Assembly: GCA_012837615.1 (NCBI GenBank)
Contig: DUQX01000071.1
Coordinates: forward strand, 1-32,340
Origin: Bacillota bacterium
Lineage (GTDB): Bacteria > Bacillota > Dethiobacteria > DTU022 > UBA8154
Reading direction: 5' to 3'
DNA: 32,340 nucleotides
How positions within the stretch are numbered: position 1 is the first letter of the stretch; each line of letters opens with the position of its first letter. This document shows, piece after piece, positions 19,357-31,705 of the stretch. The position numbers were made by a program, and so were the translations under genes. A model generated the notes under the pieces. It saw only the letters and a list, made by a program, of their open reading frames with translations. It ran no database searches and was not told where the DNA came from.

Positions 19357-20286
19357 TCATGAATAAACAGGAGTGCCGGTGTTTTGTGCATAGTTATGAA
19401 AAATTTCCATCAGTTTTTTAGTCATGGGGCCCGGGACACCACCGCCTATAGCACGCCCGTCAACAGAGGTTACGGGTACCAGTTCGGCAGCCGTTCCCGT
19501 TAAAAAACACTCCCCGGCAATATAAAGATCGTGCCGTGTGAAAGGAGCTTCTTTAACTGTAATCCCTTCTTTCGCCGCCAGCTCCATCACCGTATTGCGC
19601 GTTACTCCCTCCAGAATCCCCAGATAAATAGGCGGGGTTATCAGTTCTCCATACTTGTTTACGATAAACACATTGCATCCGGAACCCTCTACAACATAAC
19701 CCTGCTCATTTAGGACAATCGCATCCAGCACCCCTGCCTGGGTAGCCTCAATTTTAACCAGAATATTATTGAGGTAGTTCAGCGACTTAATACGCGGCTC
19801 CAACGTATTTGCATTGCGCTGGCGCGTTACAGCGGTAGTAACGCTTAACCCGTGATCATAGTACTCCTGAGCGTAAAGTGAAATCTTATCGGCAATAATA
19901 ACCACCGTAGAGCCGGAGCATTTTTGGGGGTCCAGGCCAAGGTCTCCGGGGCCACGGGAAACTACGGTCCTGATATAAGCATCCTGCAAGTTGTTGCGGC
20001 GCACAGTCTCCAGCGTAGCCTCTGCCATTTCTTCCATTGAAAGAGGAATATCGAGCAATAAGTGGTGCGCGGATTCATAAAGCCTCTGCAAATGCTCCTC
20101 CAACTTAAAAATGCGGCCATTATATGCGCGTATTCCCTCAAATACCCCATCACCATAGAGAAACCCATGATCAAAAACAGATACTTTAGCCTCTTCCCTA
20201 GAACAATATTTTCCATTAAGGTATATCTGCATACCTATACCGGTCAGACTCCCGGTATACCGGTTATCTGACTTACCTCCCTTCAA
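19357..20286 (-). CDS. ilvE: Branched-chain amino acid aminotransferase (start possibly the internal ATG at 20232)
   Basis: PLP fold IV; YLNGKYCSREEAKVSVFDHGFLYGDGVFEGIRAYNG, EGSGCNVFIVNKYGELITPP. Confidence 0.95.
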   Translation of the reverse strand: MKGGKSDNRYTGSLTGIGMQIYLNGKYCSREEAKVSVFDHGFLYGDGVFEGIRAYNGRIFKLEEHLQRLYESAHHLLLDIPLSMEEMAEATLETVRRNNLQDAYIRTVVSRGPGDLGLDPQKCSGSTVVIIADKISLYAQEYYDHGLSVTTAVTRQRNANTLEPRIKSLNYLNNILVKIEATQAGVLDAIVLNEQGYVVEGSGCNVFIVNKYGELITPPIYLGILEGVTRNTVMELAAKEGITVKEAPFTRHDLYIAGECFLTGTAAELVPVTSVDGRAIGGGVPGPMTKKLMEIFHNYAQNTGTPVYS

Positions 20287-20302: not shown

Positions 20303-20565
20303 CTAAAAAAACTCCCCCATCCATACAAGGGACGGAGGAGCGATCTCCGCGGTACCACCCTTCTTGCCCTATCATGAGGGCCTCCTCAAGCGCGAAACCT
20401 TTCCCTTTAACGGGGGAATGCCGTCCACCCTTACACAGCAGATCAGGTAATGAAGCAGTTGCCTTCAGGGAAGAACTCCAGGGCGACCAAAAGACAACTT
20501 TCCACCGGTTCCCAGCTTTTCCGGCTCTCTGCAGGAAAGGGCTGTCCTTTTATATCCCTGTCATT
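20303..20565 (-). promoter_or_regulatory. T-box leader of the ilv operon
   Basis: Minus strand contains T-box sequence AAGGGTGGTACCGCGG, stem I-like AGAGAGCCGG..GCTGGGAACCGGTGGAAAG, and terminator CTCCTCCGTCC-CTTGTAT-GGATGGGGGAG-TTTTTTT. Confidence 0.92.
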
Positions 20566-20636
20566 GTTTTGTACATCAGTTACATTGTATTGCTTACCAT
20601 TCAGGATTGTATTGCCTGCTTACCGCTTACAAGCAT

Positions 20637-22716: not shown

Positions 22717-22740
22717 CGTTATGTTAATGATAACATAGCG
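22717..22740. promoter_or_regulatory. ModE-box-like operator (site A)
   Basis: CGTTATGTT-AATGAT-AACATAGCG; outer palindrome TATCCG..CGGATA; covers predicted minus-strand promoter -10 (TTATCT-N17-TATCAT, 22727..22755). Confidence 0.65.
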
Positions 22741-22838: not shown

Positions 22839-24134
22839 TTATGTACTCCATTGAACAGTAACTGAACCGTATTTTTCACGCGCATAATCACAACACTTCA
22901 AGAAAACAGGCCTTCCGGTCGAAAGAAGAGCCTGAGCCAGGATGGCCTCTGCAAGGGGTCTAAAACCCCGCGGCACTTCTACAGCTCCATTACCATGTAC
23001 CAACTCAAGTTGCCCCCCGTTCAGCCCGATAGCCCAGGCAATAATACTTCGGTAATGTTCCGGGAATGAAAACCTGGAGTGTATCACCAGCTTTCCACTG
23101 CTATCGAGATTGGCAAACCCGATATTGTAAGCCCGGGGGTGGCAGATTGGTTCTGCCATCGCCTTATCGCCCTGCGCGTTGTTTGATATTACCGAAGCTT
23201 CCTCCTTCCTTAAAAATTTATATTTCGCTTTTACCTTTCGAGCAGCCTTAAGTGCATTTTGCAGGGAATCAGCACAAACAACGGCAAGCACTTCATCTTT
23301 GCTTTTTATTTCCTCTCTGCAGATACTGAGAATGGGGCGGTTAAACTCAAGCCCTTTCTCCTGTACAGAGGATGCCGGACCGCTTAAGTAATTGCTCCCT
23401 AAAACATCATGGGAAGTAATTATTCGGTTAACCCCGGGCACTTGCCACGCTTCATCTACTTCGACAGCTACCAATTCTGCATGAGAGACCCCGGTACGAA
23501 CCAGCACCAGGTGCAAAGCATCAGGTGGGATCCTGATACCCAGTTCGGGGACCGGGGTCCAAGTATCCGAATCGGCGGTAATAAAATCATACGCAACTTG
23601 TTGGAGATCAATCATTTTTTTGCCAAGCGGAATCCCTGCGGCCAGCTCATTAATACCAATTTCGCCGCGAACAACCCGGGCGGCATCCTCAATGGCACCA
23701 ATCCGCTTTTGCATAACCTTTTCGCTATTACAGCATTTAAAGGGCTGCTGATAAAACCAGCTCTGTATATCTTCCCTGCCCAGGAACGAATTGCTCTCCA
23801 ACATTGAAGCTCCGGCGACAATTGCCTTTCCGGAACAACGCAAGCAACCGGGGCTGTCATGGATGGCCCAGGCCAATTGCAGAGCTTGCAGGGTTCCGGC
23901 ATTTTTTATACCTTCTTTGGTAGTAACAACAGTAACATCAGGCAACTCCCCAAGAGCAATATTGCAGGCAAAAGCTGTTTTTCCATTGATAATGATAAAA
24001 CAATTTTCGCAGTCCCCTGCGCCGCACAGGCTAATATCCAGGAGCTGGTTTTGGAAAAGGACGGCCAGGGGCACCGCAGGATCTGCGACTACTCGCCATA
24101 AAACACCGTTTATATTCAGCTCTTTTTTTATCAT
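22839..24134 (-). CDS. Truncated aldehyde oxidoreductase/xanthine dehydrogenase-like protein: 2Fe-2S domains, hammerhead domain and only the start of the Moco domain
   Basis: 431 aa; CGAGDCENCFIIINGKTAFAC (plant-type 2Fe-2S), GCLRC...KCC (degenerate second cluster), ALHLVLVRTGVSHAELVAVEVDEAWQVPGVNRIITSHDV (a/b hammerhead); ends after STGRPVFLKCCDYAREKYGSVTVQWST. Confidence 0.8.
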   Translation of the reverse strand: MIKKELNINGVLWRVVADPAVPLAVLFQNQLLDISLCGAGDCENCFIIINGKTAFACNIALGELPDVTVVTTKEGIKNAGTLQALQLAWAIHDSPGCLRCSGKAIVAGASMLESNSFLGREDIQSWFYQQPFKCCNSEKVMQKRIGAIEDAARVVRGEIGINELAAGIPLGKKMIDLQQVAYDFITADSDTWTPVPELGIRIPPDALHLVLVRTGVSHAELVAVEVDEAWQVPGVNRIITSHDVLGSNYLSGPASSVQEKGLEFNRPILSICREEIKSKDEVLAVVCADSLQNALKAARKVKAKYKFLRKEEASVISNNAQGDKAMAEPICHPRAYNIGFANLDSSGKLVIHSRFSFPEHYRSIIAWAIGLNGGQLELVHGNGAVEVPRGFRPLAEAILAQALLSTGRPVFLKCCDYAREKYGSVTVQWST

Positions 24135-24202: not shown

Positions 24203-24226
24203 CGCTATGATAGTGTATTCATAACG
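24203..24226. promoter_or_regulatory. ModE-box-like operator (site B)
   Basis: CGCTATGAT-AGTGTA-TTCATAACG within CCCCG..CGGGG; covers -10 of predicted minus-strand promoter TTTACA-N17-TATCAT (24207..24235). Confidence 0.6.
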
Positions 24227-25644: not shown

Positions 25645-27696
25645 TTAACCAAGCTTGACAATACGGCAGGCATTGCCTCTCATTGTAATATAACCCGAAA
25701 CTTCGTCTCTCACCCTGGTATCCAGCAGTAAATTACAGTTGGCCGACGCCCAGCCGTGGGGAACAGATACCACGCCAGGCAGTATGTCATCGGTGACCTT
25801 GGCTTTAATTTTGATCCTGCCGCGCGGGGTTTGTATGCCAATCATCTCACCATCGATGATATCATATTTCTTGGCGGTAACAGGGTTTATTTCCGCTTCC
25901 GCTTCCGGATTTAACACCCTCAAGGCCGGCACATCGCGCATCTGGGCACCGATCCACTCCTCCCGCCTGGCCCCGGTGAGCAGCGTCTCCGGATATTGCT
26001 CGGAGAAGATGGGATCAGCCGCCTTGCTCTGCTGCGGCTCCACATGGACCGGCAGGCCCGAATGCCCCAGTTCTTCCATTCTGGCAGAATAAATTTCTAT
26101 TTTTTTGCTGTCGGTGGCAAAACCTATCTTTTCATAGATATTGTATTCCTTCTCTGCAAAATACAGTCCGGCGGGATGCTCTTTTAGTTGCTGTATAGTA
26201 ACACCTGTCGTGGAGAAAAAGTGCTCTACCACTTCTTCATCCGTCTTCCAGGGGAAGTATTCGCCCAGGCCAACCCTGTGCCCCAGATTGCTCCAGATTT
26301 TCCAAATTGGCATGCTCTCATGTAGCGGATCGATAACCTTTTTGCGCAACAGGATATAGGGGACACCGTAAGAGATGGCGTAGGGGAAACCTCCGATACC
26401 GGTCTCTTCCAGGGAAGTGCAGGCAGGAAGAGCATAGTCAGCCAACTGCGAAGTTTCGGTCATGAACGGGTCTATACTGACAAATAGCTCCAGATTTTTA
26501 ATCGCTTCTAAAAAGCGGTTGGTATCGGGGAATGTTAACGCCGGATTGCTGCCGGAGCTGAAAAGCGCTTTAATCGGATACGGTTTCTCCGAGATGATGG
26601 TCTCCGTCATCATGGAGGCGGAACCGTAAGGAGGAGTGCGTTTGCCGAACTGGTGGAAAACAGGGTACTCATCGTATCCCAGGTTCTTTTCCTCTACCGG
26701 CACACGCAGGTCAGCAAAGCGGGGTTGCGGACAGGTGACCCATCCACCCGGGGTATCAACATTGCCAGTAATGGACATCAAGACGCCAAAAGCCCTTTCC
26801 GTCTGGAGGCCGTTGGCATACTGGTTCAGGTGGCCGACGCCTTCCACGATACAGGATCTTTCAGTATTCGCAAAAATTCGTGCAAAACGCCTTACTTCTG
26901 AGGCTGGGACACCGGTGACCTCTTCAGCTTTTTCCGGCGTGTATGCCTTAACATGCTCCACCAGCCTGTCAAAACCTGTGGTCCATTTGTCTACAAATTC
27001 CTTGTCCCACAGCTCTTCCGCGATGATGACGTTCATCATGGCCAGCGCCAAGAAAGCGTCGGTACCGGGACGGATCGGCTGGTAAATACCTTCCTTGGCC
27101 AGCGGAATTCGTCTTGGATCAATAACAATTAGCTTGGCTCCGGCCTGAACCCTCTCGCGTATTATGTTCCCCTGCGGGAAGTAACTTGCATCCGGATTAT
27201 GCCCCCAGAGAATAATGCAATCTGCATTCCGCGGCTCTTCCACCGGATAGCGCCCAAAGGTAATCTGACGGGCCAGAATGCGTGTGCGGAAACAAATACC
27301 TTCCGGGTTGAAGAAATTCTGGGAGCCAAAAGCTTTGGCGAAACGCTGGTTAAAGGCTGCCATCTCAAAATGTTCGACACCAACCGAGCCTGTCCAGGTA
27401 GCCAGGGTGCGGGCGCCGTACTTTTCTCTTAACTCCAGCAATTTGGCACCTATTTCGTCAAAAGCCTGGTCCCAGGAAATTCGCTGGAAACGCCCGTTCA
27501 CTTTCTTCATTGGGTACTTTAAGCGGGCTGGTGAATAAATCAGCTCCACCAGGTGTTTGCCTTTCTCGCAAAGCTCACCTTTGTTCAACCAGTTCTCCTT
27601 CGTACCTTCTACCTTAACAAGTCTGCCGTTTTCCACATAAGCGTCAATGCCGCAGCTATTAATGCATAAACCACAATCAGTCTTAATAATTTCCAT
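25645..27696 (-). CDS. Molybdopterin (bis-MGD) oxidoreductase, single catalytic subunit
   Basis: 683 aa; N-terminal CX2CX3CX27C Fe-S motif, no Tat signal; RFAKAFGSQNFFNPEGICFRTR, LIVIDPRRIPLAKEG, C-terminal molydopterin dinucleotide-binding domain; RBS AGGAGG. Confidence 0.95.
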   Translation of the reverse strand: MEIIKTDCGLCINSCGIDAYVENGRLVKVEGTKENWLNKGELCEKGKHLVELIYSPARLKYPMKKVNGRFQRISWDQAFDEIGAKLLELREKYGARTLATWTGSVGVEHFEMAAFNQRFAKAFGSQNFFNPEGICFRTRILARQITFGRYPVEEPRNADCIILWGHNPDASYFPQGNIIRERVQAGAKLIVIDPRRIPLAKEGIYQPIRPGTDAFLALAMMNVIIAEELWDKEFVDKWTTGFDRLVEHVKAYTPEKAEEVTGVPASEVRRFARIFANTERSCIVEGVGHLNQYANGLQTERAFGVLMSITGNVDTPGGWVTCPQPRFADLRVPVEEKNLGYDEYPVFHQFGKRTPPYGSASMMTETIISEKPYPIKALFSSGSNPALTFPDTNRFLEAIKNLELFVSIDPFMTETSQLADYALPACTSLEETGIGGFPYAISYGVPYILLRKKVIDPLHESMPIWKIWSNLGHRVGLGEYFPWKTDEEVVEHFFSTTGVTIQQLKEHPAGLYFAEKEYNIYEKIGFATDSKKIEIYSARMEELGHSGLPVHVEPQQSKAADPIFSEQYPETLLTGARREEWIGAQMRDVPALRVLNPEAEAEINPVTAKKYDIIDGEMIGIQTPRGRIKIKAKVTDDILPGVVSVPHGWASANCNLLLDTRVRDEVSGYITMRGNACRIVKLG

Positions 27697-27876: not shown

Positions 27877-27918
27877 CGTTATGCACCCTCAGACATTTGT
27901 GCCATATTTGACATAATG
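27877..27918. promoter_or_regulatory. Two overlapping ModE-box-like operators (sites G and C)
   Basis: G: CGTTATGCA-CCCTCA-GACATTTGT (27877-27900); C: ATTTGTGCC-ATATTT-GACATAATG (27895-27918). Confidence 0.5.
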
Positions 27919-27947
27919 AGTATAATATAAAAAACTTTCAAAGTCAA
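27919..27947 (-). promoter_or_regulatory. Promoter of the molybdopterin oxidoreductase gene
   Basis: Minus strand TTGACT-N17-TATACT; -10 directly abuts site C. Confidence 0.7.
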
Positions 27948-28087: not shown

Positions 28088-28516
28088 CTAGAACCCATGG
28101 AAAAAGTCAAAAAAAACACTGTCTGTCACAGTGATTACATCCTTTTTATATTGTTTGTAAATTTTTAGCAGTTTCTTTCCCTTGGAAGTTAGTTCGGCAC
28201 CACTTTTTCGCCCCCCAGCCTGCCTTTGAACCAGTTTTAAACCTAGCCTTTCTTCCGTAGCCTTGATCTTACCCCAGGCCGCTCTGTAGGACATGTTTAA
28301 TTTTTCCGCCGCCTGCTTGATGGATCCCGTTTCCTCAATAGCCTGAAACAGAGCCACGCGCCCGCCGCCGAAGACAACGGCACCGTCCACTTCGAGCCAC
28401 AATTTTATTTTTGGCTGTATCTTTTTAAGAATATCTTCGTTTTCTTTTTCATTCGGCATATTTCGCTCAACTCGCTCTTTAGCTTTTCTATCTTTAATGT
28501 AAGTATAGCGAAGCAA
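28088..28516 (-). CDS. ModE-type HTH regulator lacking a TOBE domain (start may be the internal ATG near 28459)
   Basis: LEVDGAVVFGGGRVALFQAIEETGSIKQAAEKLNMSYRAAWGKIKATEERLGLKLVQRQAGGRKSGAELTSKGKKLLKIYKQY; ORF ends about 20 aa later. Confidence 0.9.
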   Translation of the reverse strand: MLRYTYIKDRKAKERVERNMPNEKENEDILKKIQPKIKLWLEVDGAVVFGGGRVALFQAIEETGSIKQAAEKLNMSYRAAWGKIKATEERLGLKLVQRQAGGRKSGAELTSKGKKLLKIYKQYKKDVITVTDSVFFDFFHGF

Positions 28517-28529
28517 CCTTGGAGTGTCA

Positions 28530-28567
28530 ATGTTGCAGGATGCCTCTTGCTTGCACGTCCTGCAACA
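28530..28567. repeat. 10-bp perfect inverted repeat between fmdE-like and ModE-like genes
   Basis: TGTTGCAGGA ... TCCTGCAACA. Confidence 0.65.
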
Positions 28568-28601
28568 TTCCCCTTACGACTTACATTCCCCTTACGACTT
28601 A
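28566..28601. repeat. 18-bp tandem duplication spanning the stop codon of the FmdE-like gene
   Basis: ATTCCCCTTACGACTTAC repeated twice. Confidence 0.9.
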
Positions 28602-29185
28602 CAAGCCGGGCATATTACCCTGCCCCCATCAAGGCTTGCCCAGGGCTCCATAAAGGCCTCACCACATTCCGCACATGAAACAAAGGGAAACAAACGAGGT
28701 TTTCCGGGAATTTTTATTTTTATCTGTTGGACATCCAGTAATTTATTATCTTTCAATTCCATTAATTCCAAACCGCGTTTACCGCGAATATCAATCCACT
28801 GCTGTTTTTCTTTTTCTGTAGCAGTCCCCACCTTTACTTTACGATGAAGAAGCAGAGGCTCATTGGAGGCCCAAAGGGGTACTTTTAGGAGAATGCGTAT
28901 TCCTTCACCGGTTCTTTTTTCCACCCAGCTAAAAGCAAATTTACCGCGATTATATATTATTAATCCATCATTACCCAGCGTGCACCCGGTAATATATTGA
29001 ACCCCGTCGATCCCGCAAACATCATTCTCACAAACCGCTATGTGGGTTTCTCCCAGCTTTCTTAATGCTTTGTCCAGCGTTGCCATTGCCAAAACACTTG
29101 CCCTGAATCCAACTGCTATACCGGGACAGATGTGCCCGTGAAAATCAACCGTTTCTTGCCATAATTCTTCATGTCGAATGGACAT
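28592..29185 (-). CDS. FmdE-family protein with C-terminal zinc-ribbon-like CX2C...CX2C; start at ATG 29185
   Basis: DFHGHICPGIAVGFRASVLAM, CENDVCGIDGVQYITGCTLGNDGLI, CAECGEAF...VICPACKS; AGGAGG RBS 6 nt before the ATG. Confidence 0.9.
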   Translation of the reverse strand: MSIRHEELWQETVDFHGHICPGIAVGFRASVLAMATLDKALRKLGETHIAVCENDVCGIDGVQYITGCTLGNDGLIIYNRGKFAFSWVEKRTGEGIRILLKVPLWASNEPLLLHRKVKVGTATEKEKQQWIDIRGKRGLELMELKDNKLLDVQQIKIKIPGKPRLFPFVSCAECGEAFMEPWASLDGGRVICPACKS

Positions 29186-29324
29186 TTCTAACCTCCTAAA
29201 ATATTTATAAATCAAAGAGTCTTTCATCTTCCGGATCGATTATGTTTTTGTCCCTTTATTATGCTTTTATAACTTTCATTGCGACTATAAAATACCAATT
29301 CTTCTTTAATCTTACTTTCAGTTA

Positions 29325-30176
29325 TTACGCTTTTGGATCTTTCATTGTGACACCGATGTTTACAGGCCGGCCAAAATACATTGAAGTAGAGACAATTGCA
29401 TCTACCCCCGTTGCCGCATATTGTTCAACATTATCTTCGTTTATACCACCGGCGGCAATACACAGAATTTGTGGAAAATCTTTTTTAATTACCTTCACCA
29501 GATCCACCAATTTTTCGGGAGGCAATTTGTCAAACTGCAACCCATCAACACCTGCCTTGCACAAAGGTATAGCCTCCTCCGGCTGCTCAATTTCAACGAC
29601 CACCTTTTTTTCGCAACTTTTTATTTTTAACTGCTCTATTATAGCAGCAGGTTTATCCCATGAGCTATCAAAAACCCGGTGCTGTTTAAAAATAAGTATC
29701 GATTCCGACAAGCCAAGCCGGTGCGGGAGCCCTCTGCCGCACAAAACAGCTTTTATGGAAAGCTCTTTTGTTCCCGGAAAGACTTTTCTAGTTGACAATA
29801 TAGACACTTTTTCGTTTACCTTCCTCGCTTTTTCCACCAGCCTGTGAGTGCGGGAGGCTATACCGCTGGCGTATTCCAGGATATTTTGAGAAGTTTTCCA
29901 GAGCAAATGCAACACCCCGGCTTTGCCGGCAACTTTCATAAAAATCTCTCCGGGGCTAATTTTTGAGCCGGAGGGGAGATACTCAAGCACCTCCCCTCCC
30001 TTCAGCACGGTTAATCTAGCCACTTCCTCGGTTCCGCATAGAACAGCTTCGTCTCTGCTGAAAAAATGCATTTCGCCATCCTTTTCAACGATATCTAGCA
30101 GATATGTTGTCAGATCCATATAGGGTATATCTTCTTTAAGCCATCTTTCCAGAGCTTCATCTGTGATATTTACCAT
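29325..30176 (-). CDS. modD: ModD-like protein (quinolinate phosphoribosyltransferase/NadC superfamily)
   Basis: 283 aa; EDIPYMDLTTYLL, SRDEAVLCGTEEVARL, NILEYASGIASRTHRLV, STRKVFPGTK; AGGAGG RBS. Confidence 0.88.
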   Translation of the reverse strand: MVNITDEALERWLKEDIPYMDLTTYLLDIVEKDGEMHFFSRDEAVLCGTEEVARLTVLKGGEVLEYLPSGSKISPGEIFMKVAGKAGVLHLLWKTSQNILEYASGIASRTHRLVEKARKVNEKVSILSTRKVFPGTKELSIKAVLCGRGLPHRLGLSESILIFKQHRVFDSSWDKPAAIIEQLKIKSCEKKVVVEIEQPEEAIPLCKAGVDGLQFDKLPPEKLVDLVKVIKKDFPQILCIAAGGINEDNVEQYAATGVDAIVSTSMYFGRPVNIGVTMKDPKA

Positions 30177-30285
30177 GGAAACCTCCTCGTAGTTTGATAA
30201 TTAATGGTGCGGAATAGCCGGAATAGATCTGAACGAAGCATTATATTTAAATAAACATAGCGATATTTAAAAAAAATGGCTACCA

Positions 30286-30324: not shown

Positions 30325-31080
30325 TCAGGAAAAATATGTGCTCGATTCTAAGAGGTTGCTTACCAGAAGCTTTAACGTTTCCTGGAGTACCCCTCTTCTC
30401 TTGGATAAAAATAATAGTTCCCTTAGGATTTCCTGTTTTACCAGCTCTTTGTCCAGTCCAAGCTCACTGCTAAATATCTGGAACAATTCCCCGATCATGG
30501 CTATTTTCCACGGTGAAAAAGGGGGCGAATAGGTAAGCCCAAAAGCACAAAGGCTTCCGATATCCTCCTCCATCCTCCCCTCCCGGCATTCTTCAAAATC
30601 GATCCCGTAGATCCTCTCCCTGATAATAAAATTCCTAAAATTTACATCCCCCATAATTAACTGCCTTCCGGCAATTGCCTTCGACATAGCATAAAAATCC
30701 TTAAACCAGCAGCAAAGGCTGTAAATACTTTGATAAGTAGGCCCCTTTAGCGAACTGTTTTCAGAACCGCTGACGCTCTCCTGCCAAAAAAAATAATCAA
30801 TAAATAATGGGCCTTCCAGATATTCCAGTAAAATGTAATTTCCACCTACTCCGTACACCCTGGGAACGGGAGCCCCTTTTTCTTTTAATAAGGAGAGCAT
30901 TTTAACTTCCTTAGGCATTCTATCGGGACGAGAGTATTCCTTATACACCAAATATTTTTGGTTTTGATCCAGGCTATTCGTTTTAACCAAAAAGACATTG
31001 TTCTTTCTGCTGGTAAATTTCTTTTCCACAGAAAAACAATATAGATCTTTGTTATTTATTTGTGTAAGGTTATCTAACAC
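30325..31080 (-). CDS. Small protein-kinase/aminoglycoside-phosphotransferase-fold protein (GTG start)
   Basis: 251 aa; YLVYKEYSRPDRMPKEVKMLSLLKEKGAPVPRVYGVGGNYILLEYLEG, MGDVNFRNFIIRERIYGIDFEECREGRMEEDIG. Confidence 0.75.
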   Translation of the reverse strand: MLDNLTQINNKDLYCFSVEKKFTSRKNNVFLVKTNSLDQNQKYLVYKEYSRPDRMPKEVKMLSLLKEKGAPVPRVYGVGGNYILLEYLEGPLFIDYFFWQESVSGSENSSLKGPTYQSIYSLCCWFKDFYAMSKAIAGRQLIMGDVNFRNFIIRERIYGIDFEECREGRMEEDIGSLCAFGLTYSPPFSPWKIAMIGELFQIFSSELGLDKELVKQEILRELLFLSKRRGVLQETLKLLVSNLLESSTYFS

Positions 31081-31191
31081 AAAATCACTCCTAAAAGGAA
31101 AATGACTTGTCCGGGTTTAAGTTTCTTATAATTTTAAGCGGTAAGATAATCAAAGCTTTACATGCTTATATATTAATAACAGCAAATAACC

Positions 31192-31266
31192 AAAAAAAAG
31201 AAGTTTTGGCGGAGAAGGGCTATCATACAAACACTTCAAGGATAAGCCACCTCCACCGCCGAAACA
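31192..31266 (-). terminator. Structured hairpin with T8 tract upstream of the kinase-like gene (terminator/attenuator-like)
   Basis: Minus strand GGCGG-TGGAGGT-GGCTTATC...GATAGCC-CTTCT-CCGCC-AAAACTTCTTTTTTTT. Confidence 0.55.
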
Positions 31267-31426
31267 TATTAGGAGGTTAAGCTGTTAGCGTTGCCAATGT
31301 TAATAGGGAGTATTCAACAAATCTTCTGCAATCATTCACCTCCCAGGTTAAATTAAATTATTGCTCTAAATTAGAGTCATTATACATCTTCAAAATCATT
31401 GCGCACCATCTATGCATCATCAGGAT

Positions 31427-31450
31427 CATTATGCATCTATATACATATCG
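31427..31450. promoter_or_regulatory. ModE-box-like operator (site F)
   Basis: CATTATGCA-TCTATA-TACATATCG. Confidence 0.5.
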
Positions 31451-31481
31451 TAAAGACATTGAATCATTTCGAGTCATCAAA

Positions 31482-31502
31482 GCCCGGGGCCCGGGGCCCG
31501 GG
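31482..31502. repeat. 7-bp tandem repeat, three copies of GCCCGGG
   Basis: gcccggg gcccggg gcccggg. Confidence 0.9.
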
Positions 31503-31610
31503 AATGCCCTGGAATTTACCACCTCAGTAATATTAGCAATATTATAAAAGCTCAACCCGACAACTTCACAGGTCAACAATCAACATCTCATTAACAATTT
31601 GTAATAGGCT

Positions 31611-31658
31611 ATATGTTAATATCATTATGCCAAATTTGTCATAATGATATTAACATAT
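31611..31658. promoter_or_regulatory. 48-bp near-perfect palindrome containing ModE-box-like operator (site D, core 31623-31646)
   Basis: ATATGTTAATATCATTATG-CCAAATTTGT-CATAATGATATTAACATAT, 19-bp perfect arms. Confidence 0.75.
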
Positions 31659-31675
31659 CCTGTAACAGCTGTCAA
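31647..31675 (-). promoter_or_regulatory. Predicted promoter reading toward the kinase-like gene
   Basis: Minus strand TTGACA-N17-TAATAT; -10 directly abuts site D. Confidence 0.6.
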
Positions 31676-31705
31676 GGTTTCTGGTCAATTTTTTTTTTGG
31701 TTAAT

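Follow-up and report, generated by a model that had tools for sequence, protein, structure and literature searches.

Operators abutting molybdenum-gene promoters as probable targets of a short ModE-like protein in a Dethiobacteria genome

Two 24-bp palindromes, here called sites C and D, directly abut the −10 elements of two promoters in the window – the whole 32,340-nucleotide stretch of DNA analysed – and the same arrangement is found at further promoters and in other species. C and D are probably operators of a repressor, most likely an HTH-only ModE-like protein encoded in the same window (referred to as w-type), which would occlude RNA polymerase at −10/+1. In the mechanism proposed, a w-type dimer would bind the 24-bp palindrome, spanning about −6 to +18; occupation of C would switch off the Mo oxidoreductase gene, and occupation of D the transcript running towards an APH-like gene. 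By analogy with ModE, repression would prevail with sufficient molybdate or tungstate and be lifted under scarcity, and the regulon would comprise Mo/W uptake, cofactor and enzyme genes, all controlled by promoter occlusion. Protein–DNA contact, the direction of the effect and its dependence on metal are what we infer here, from sequence and by analogy.

The window corresponds to contig C25 in a 2.1 Mb draft genome of ~89% completeness. Its leftward genes encode a CbiQ-like transporter subunit, an APH-like kinase, ModD, an FmdE-domain protein and the ModE-like HTH protein, followed – also leftward – by a molybdopterin oxidoreductase (FDH/PhsA-like; the Mo oxidoreductase), MoeA, an XO-like fusion and a MoeA-like MoCF protein (Table 1). 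The XO-like protein (431 aa, 22839–24134, minus strand) matches only the first ~310 residues of a 905-aa aldehyde oxidoreductase model, and a similar short form is present in the related genomes G006 and G005. Elsewhere in the window, an ordinary T-box leader (20325–20573, minus strand) lies upstream of a branched-chain aminotransferase gene (19357–20286).

Table 1. Coordinates of genes, promoters, operator-like sites and other features (window positions unless a locus is named).
Feature	Position	Strand	Support or remark
Class-2 (canonical ModE-box) site A, upstream of MoeA-like MoCF gene	22717..22740	-	pattern match
Class-2 site B, upstream of XO-like gene; holds −10 of TTTACA-N17-TATCAT (24235-24207)	24203..24226	-	
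Molybdopterin oxidoreductase, 683 aa, FDH/PhsA-like; putative target of C	25645..27696	-	family matches
Possible second operator, overlapping C and sharing its right arm	27877..27900	-	inferred
Class-1 operator C, minus strand CATTATGTCAAATATGGCACAAAT, zero gap to −10	27895..27918	-	3 mismatches to class-1 palindrome
Mo oxidoreductase gene promoter TTGACT-N17-TATACT	27919..27947	-	10/12 match; kept in G006 and G005 orthologues
HTH-only ModE-like protein, 123 aa, 'w-type'; proposed repressor	28088..28459	-	
ModE-like gene promoter TTGACA-N17-TATACT	28502..28530	-	11/12 match
FmdE-domain protein	28592..29227	-	PF02663, 112 bits
ModD	29325..30176	-	TIGR01334, 205 bits, above cut-off
Weaker site E, between APH-like gene and modD	30239..30262	-	1 mismatch to CRTWATG-N10-CATARYG; PWM 12.3
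APH-like kinase; first gene downstream of D	30325..31080	-	PF01636, 29.7 bits
Terminator-like hairpin with T-run in D leader, before APH-like gene	31191..31265	-	fold
Weaker site F, in D leader	31427..31450	-	1 mismatch; PWM 8.4
48-bp palindrome; core is D, arm includes −10	31611..31658	.	arms 96% complementary
Class-1 operator D, minus strand CATTATGACAAATTTGGCATAATG, zero gap to −10	31623..31646	-	0 mismatches
D promoter TTGACA-N17-TAATAT	31647..31675	-	10/12 match; TG before −10
Class-1-like site CATTATGTCATTATAAGCATAATA	L173:651-674 (G005:C30 about 370150)		

The pattern CATTATGNCAAATNTGNCATAATG, built from C and D, matches only these two places in the window at up to three mismatches (0.00 expected from 100 shuffles). 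Together with a promoter scan, this search bore out the original prediction that the minus-strand promoters of the Mo oxidoreductase gene and of D run into their operators with zero gap; the predicted transcription starts lie near 27911 and 31640. Site C, which is conserved in G006 and G005, may in fact be two overlapping operators (27877–27918), since G006 retains an extra half-site, GCATAA(C/T)G, immediately downstream of it: the right half-site of the possible second operator reads CATAACG here (27877–27883), CATAATG in G006 and, more weakly, CATACTT in G005. A divergent plus-strand promoter at D was considered and rejected, as inspection by eye found no suitably spaced −35 element preceding the mirrored TAATAT.

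As the promoter scan returned 31 promoter-like matches in the window against 20.7 ± 4.0 in shuffled sequence, such matches are weak evidence on their own, and the geometry was therefore tested by comparison with relatives. The sample comprised 39 sites of the type of C and D (class 1) from the same and related genomes, promoters were accepted at 10/12 matches or better, and dinucleotide-shuffled flanks (300 shuffles) served as the control. In the first layout, a −10 element ends 0–1 bp before the site; it occurs at 8 of the 39 sites against 0.04 expected, a count reached by none of the 300 shuffles, although the sites are not independent – three of the eight are C and its orthologues – and about five different promoters are represented. 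Besides C and D, examples come from G005, where a TupA-like operon and two other promoters are arranged in this way, and from G022, with the XO-like gene; the TupA and Mo oxidoreductase promoters of G005 look like the result of duplication. The abutting geometry is thus not a matter of chance.

In the second layout, the −35 element lies inside the site: TTGACA falls within the right half-site and the −10 follows at 17–18 bp, often with a 12/12 match. This is found at 15 of the 39 sites, again a count that no shuffle out of 300 reached, against an expectation of 3.9, raised by the fact that TTGACA can come from the site itself. The genomes concerned are G018, G020 and G022 as well as members of a different family (G072-G074, G082, G083 and G085), and several of these loci have a second operator ~90–130 bp away.

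Conservation at the Mo oxidoreductase gene itself points the same way. In the orthologues from G006 (86% identical) and G005 (84%), the block GTCTTGAC...TTTTTATATTATA(C/T)T-CATT(A/G)TGTCAA..ATGGCA(C/T)AAATG is kept, so that the promoter–operator is the longest block aligned across the three species in an otherwise diverged upstream region. A second Mo oxidoreductase copy in G005 (81%) has no good site upstream, and the APH-like gene of G022 did not show the exact layout of D.

The protein most probably acting at these sites, the w-type protein, matches the ModE family TIGR00637 with an E value of 3e-20 and 72 bits, below the curated cut-off of 98.5. Its PDB matches are 2ijl (the best), 1b9m and 1o7l, with ModE chains at E 3e-7. 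It ends ~20 residues after the HTH, the only domain found by Pfam, which detected no C-terminal molybdate-binding (molbindin/TOBE) domains; given this and the score, the protein is called ModE-like rather than a full ModE. In a tree of HTH domains, it belongs to a clade of 14 genomes (support 0.96), in which the recognition helix, SYRAAWGK, is invariant and the wing is altered to GGxxSG(A/S)xLT.

Class-1 sites co-occur with this clade. At one mismatch or fewer, a site is present in 6 of 98 genomes, and all six carry the clade (14 of the 98 do), a co-occurrence with P ~3e-6 (14 carriers) or 4.8e-6 (15 carriers) when kinship of the genomes is ignored; a reversed control pattern matches in 1 of 98. 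At up to two mismatches, a w-type protein is found in 8 of the 13 genomes with a site and was not detected in five, of which G018 is only 62% complete and the others look like chance. In G085, two perfect class-1 sites flank the w-type gene; in the window, a PWM scan gave no class-1 site at that gene's own promoter. Just upstream of this promoter, a 12-bp perfect inverted repeat, AATGTTGCAGGA-N17-TCCTGCAACATT (28530–28571), was noticed by eye.

C, D and two further sites, A and B, are not one operator family; comparison separates them into two distinguishable classes. Two 7-bp arms 10 bp apart are common to both: A, B and D fit CRTWATG-N10-CATARYG without mismatch, and the right arm of C is imperfect. 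A and B read CGTTATG-N10-CATAGCG and have the canonical CGTTAT/ATAACG arms, which C and D (CATTATG) lack. Class 1 (C and D) can be written as CATTATGnCA-N4-TGnCATAATG, and class 2 is the canonical ModE box, CGTTATG-N10-CATAACG. The inner C and A (positions 9 and 10) occur in 100% and 90% of class-1 sites against 10% and 20% of class-2 sites, and position 2 is A in 72% of class 1 against G in 92% of class 2 (20 sites each), a contrast that is partly built in, since it was the class-1 pattern that served to collect the sites of that class.

A and B had also been said to cover the −10 elements of their promoters. For B this holds, the −10 of its promoter (10/12) lying inside the site; the promoter at A (TTATCT-17-TATCAT) is present but weak, matching at 8/12 by manual count and thus under the scan threshold. 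The orthologous places of B in G006 and G005 are class-2 sites too, and those of A also have sites. Class-2 boxes form a pair upstream of modA-modB-modC in the same genome and are found upstream of modA-type genes in ~10 relatives, including genomes without the window-type ModE-like protein. Another pair, 28 bp apart (L013:9853-9904; G000:C63:13852-13903), precedes an operon for an NTPase, a methyltransferase and ECF transporter subunits (S, two ATPases and a CbiQ-like protein), which suggests, as far as the sequence goes, that this transporter is under Mo/W control.

The existence of two classes bears on which protein acts at C and D, because the genome encodes three ModE-type HTH proteins: the HTH-only protein of the window, a fusion with a TupA-like domain (on contig C66) and a stand-alone protein (C123) whose gene lies beside one for a YqeC-MobA fusion. 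The fusion (L015:723-1937, G000:C66) joins a ModE-type HTH to a TupA-like substrate-binding domain, and similar long ModE frames are present in many genomes of the family. C and D might be variant ModE boxes bound by the C66 fusion or the C123 protein, alone or in a share with the w-type protein, a reading that we regard as unlikely. Both proteins are at hand in the same genome, the fusion has a plausible oxyanion-sensing domain, the outer half-sites and 24-bp spacing of C and D are those of ModE boxes, and in G022 the XO-like and APH-like genes have class-1 and class-2 sites next to one another. However, proteins of both the C66 and C123 types are present in many genomes of the family that have no class-1 site, and genomes with such proteins carry class-2 boxes at modA.

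Nor is repression the only conceivable outcome of binding. ModE-type proteins can also activate, as E. coli ModE does at the moa promoter when molybdate-bound (PMC2408646), but activation at the class-1 sites seems improbable: the promoters are already near consensus, and sites at −6/+18 or over a consensus −35 occupy polymerase-blocking positions. Sigma-70-type promoters are found with the site overlapping or abutting −10/+1 or −35, and in both layouts the bound protein would occupy DNA that RNA polymerase needs, in keeping with repression. The predicted repressor-like placement at or over −10/+1 is accordingly well supported, with the abutting layout recurring at other promoters and species. 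It is more improbable still that the inner TGnCA-N4-TGnCA repeat serves an unrelated regulator, such as one of the Crp/Fnr or NikR type; in class 1 this repeat is as strongly conserved as the outer arms, but the co-occurrence with the w-type clade, the Mo/W targets and outer arms spaced identically to those of ModE boxes speak for a ModE-like protein. The least probable reading takes the palindromes for RNA hairpins at the transcript 5′ end rather than protein sites on DNA: in the abutting layout they would indeed be transcribed there, and 5′ hairpins are predicted in the candidate sRNAs described below, yet in the second layout the palindrome lies over the −35, outside the transcript, which argues against such a role, and over D Rfam gave only sub-threshold microRNA and snoRNA models.

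A putative w-type repressor with an operator class of its own can be set against better-known systems. The E. coli ModE consensus is quoted as ATCGNTATATA-N6-TATATANCGAT (PMC545781), and the E. coli-type box and the Geobacter sulfurreducens modDABC site (PMC545781) share with the present sites the 24-bp inverted repeat, the 7-bp arms 10 bp apart and a place at Mo-gene promoters. A and B closely match those boxes, whereas C and D differ in their CATTATG arms and conserved inner nCA/TGn, which class 2 lacks. The single-domain ModE of Desulfovibrio resembles the w-type protein in having the ModE DNA-binding domain without molybdate-binding domains, and its sensing mechanism is unknown; its sites, CGGTCACG-N14-CGTGACCG, are quite different from class 1 (PMC545781). 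MopA and MopB of Rhodobacter capsulatus are likewise ModE-like paralogues in one genome and repress at Mo-boxes (PMC6925177), but either suffices at shared promoters, whereas here different site classes seem to go with different paralogues, and the putative repressor has only the HTH. The protein in PDB 2ijl, a 135-aa 'molybdenum-binding transcriptional repressor', is also a short ModE-type HTH protein, and its alignment with the w-type protein covers the HTH region only (query residues 25–104).

Genes near class-1 sites encode the Mo oxidoreductase, XO-like proteins and aldehyde oxidoreductases, AFOR, a TupA-like transporter, MoeA and MobB, which indirectly supports a putative Mo/W link, although in G005 several sites neighbour genes for surface proteins, or other genes, that have no evident part in Mo/W metabolism. 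As TupA and AFOR are among the targets, the signal may be tungsten.

A further group of class-1 sites marks a candidate sRNA gene. In G003, G004 and G005 (L080:1430-1690, plus strand; L081:1430-1690, plus; L053:13030-13290, minus), a near-perfect promoter, TTGACA-N16/17-TATAAT, is followed after 7 bp by a class-1 operator, a variable linker, the conserved AATAACCCCTCTTCTCCCGGC...CCGGGATTTTT and an intrinsic terminator, with no ORF found downstream in the promoter direction; a C-rich stretch before the terminator is predicted to be single-stranded. From this organisation, the locus may encode a Mo/W-regulated sRNA. Its 17-mer occurs exactly in three places (in those same three genomes) among the matches listed for 71 genomes; at two mismatches, matches are scattered across the order, and only exact and one-mismatch copies in the genus (g4) were counted as meaningful. 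One such one-mismatch copy lies at G005:C30:370096, near the class-1-like site CATTATGTCATTATAAGCATAATA.

Comparable sRNAs are known from iron metabolism: IsrR is an iron-sparing sRNA with single-stranded C-rich stretches, and FsrA binds Shine–Dalgarno sequences through a C-rich motif (PMC9410917). Like these Fur-regulated sRNAs (PMC9410917), the candidate has a metal-regulator operator at its promoter, an intrinsic terminator and a single-stranded C-rich stretch that could pair with Shine–Dalgarno sequences; unlike theirs, its operator is of the Mo/W class-1 type. It is conceivable, if on balance doubtful, that a ModE-like clade without a sensor domain, which would have a separate operator class and a Mo/W regulon other than that of the canonical ModE boxes in the same genome, also represses this C-rich sRNA in at least one genus, scarcity of Mo/W releasing a possibly metal-sparing sRNA. 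Were this so, the release would parallel the Fur-controlled FsrA and IsrR, and the candidate would – judging from a limited literature search – be the first known metal-sparing sRNA under a Mo/W operator. The analysis yields a defined operator, a promoter geometry, a regulator clade and a target list for Mo/W control in relatives, and a clade with so clean an operator opens metal sensing by single-domain ModE proteins to in vitro tests that need only one short protein and synthetic DNAs.

The target of D is less certain than that of C, given that its arrangement was not found in G022 and that a long leader (~540 bp) with a terminator-like hairpin separates it from the APH-like gene; the fold over 31180–31290 has −32.7 kcal/mol (z −3.9). 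A Moco riboswitch in this leader was considered and rejected, the Rfam Moco RNA motif giving no match at the gathering threshold, nor any with E ≤ 5 over 31050–31700. Around site F (31371–31450, minus strand), the leader contains several direct repeats resembling the half-site GATGCATAATGA. Further along, at 31280–31345 (minus strand), inspection by eye found GGGAGGTGA, then an 11-codon ORF (MIAEDLLNTPY) and, before the terminator-like hairpin, a CCTCC stretch; this region could be an attenuation leader.
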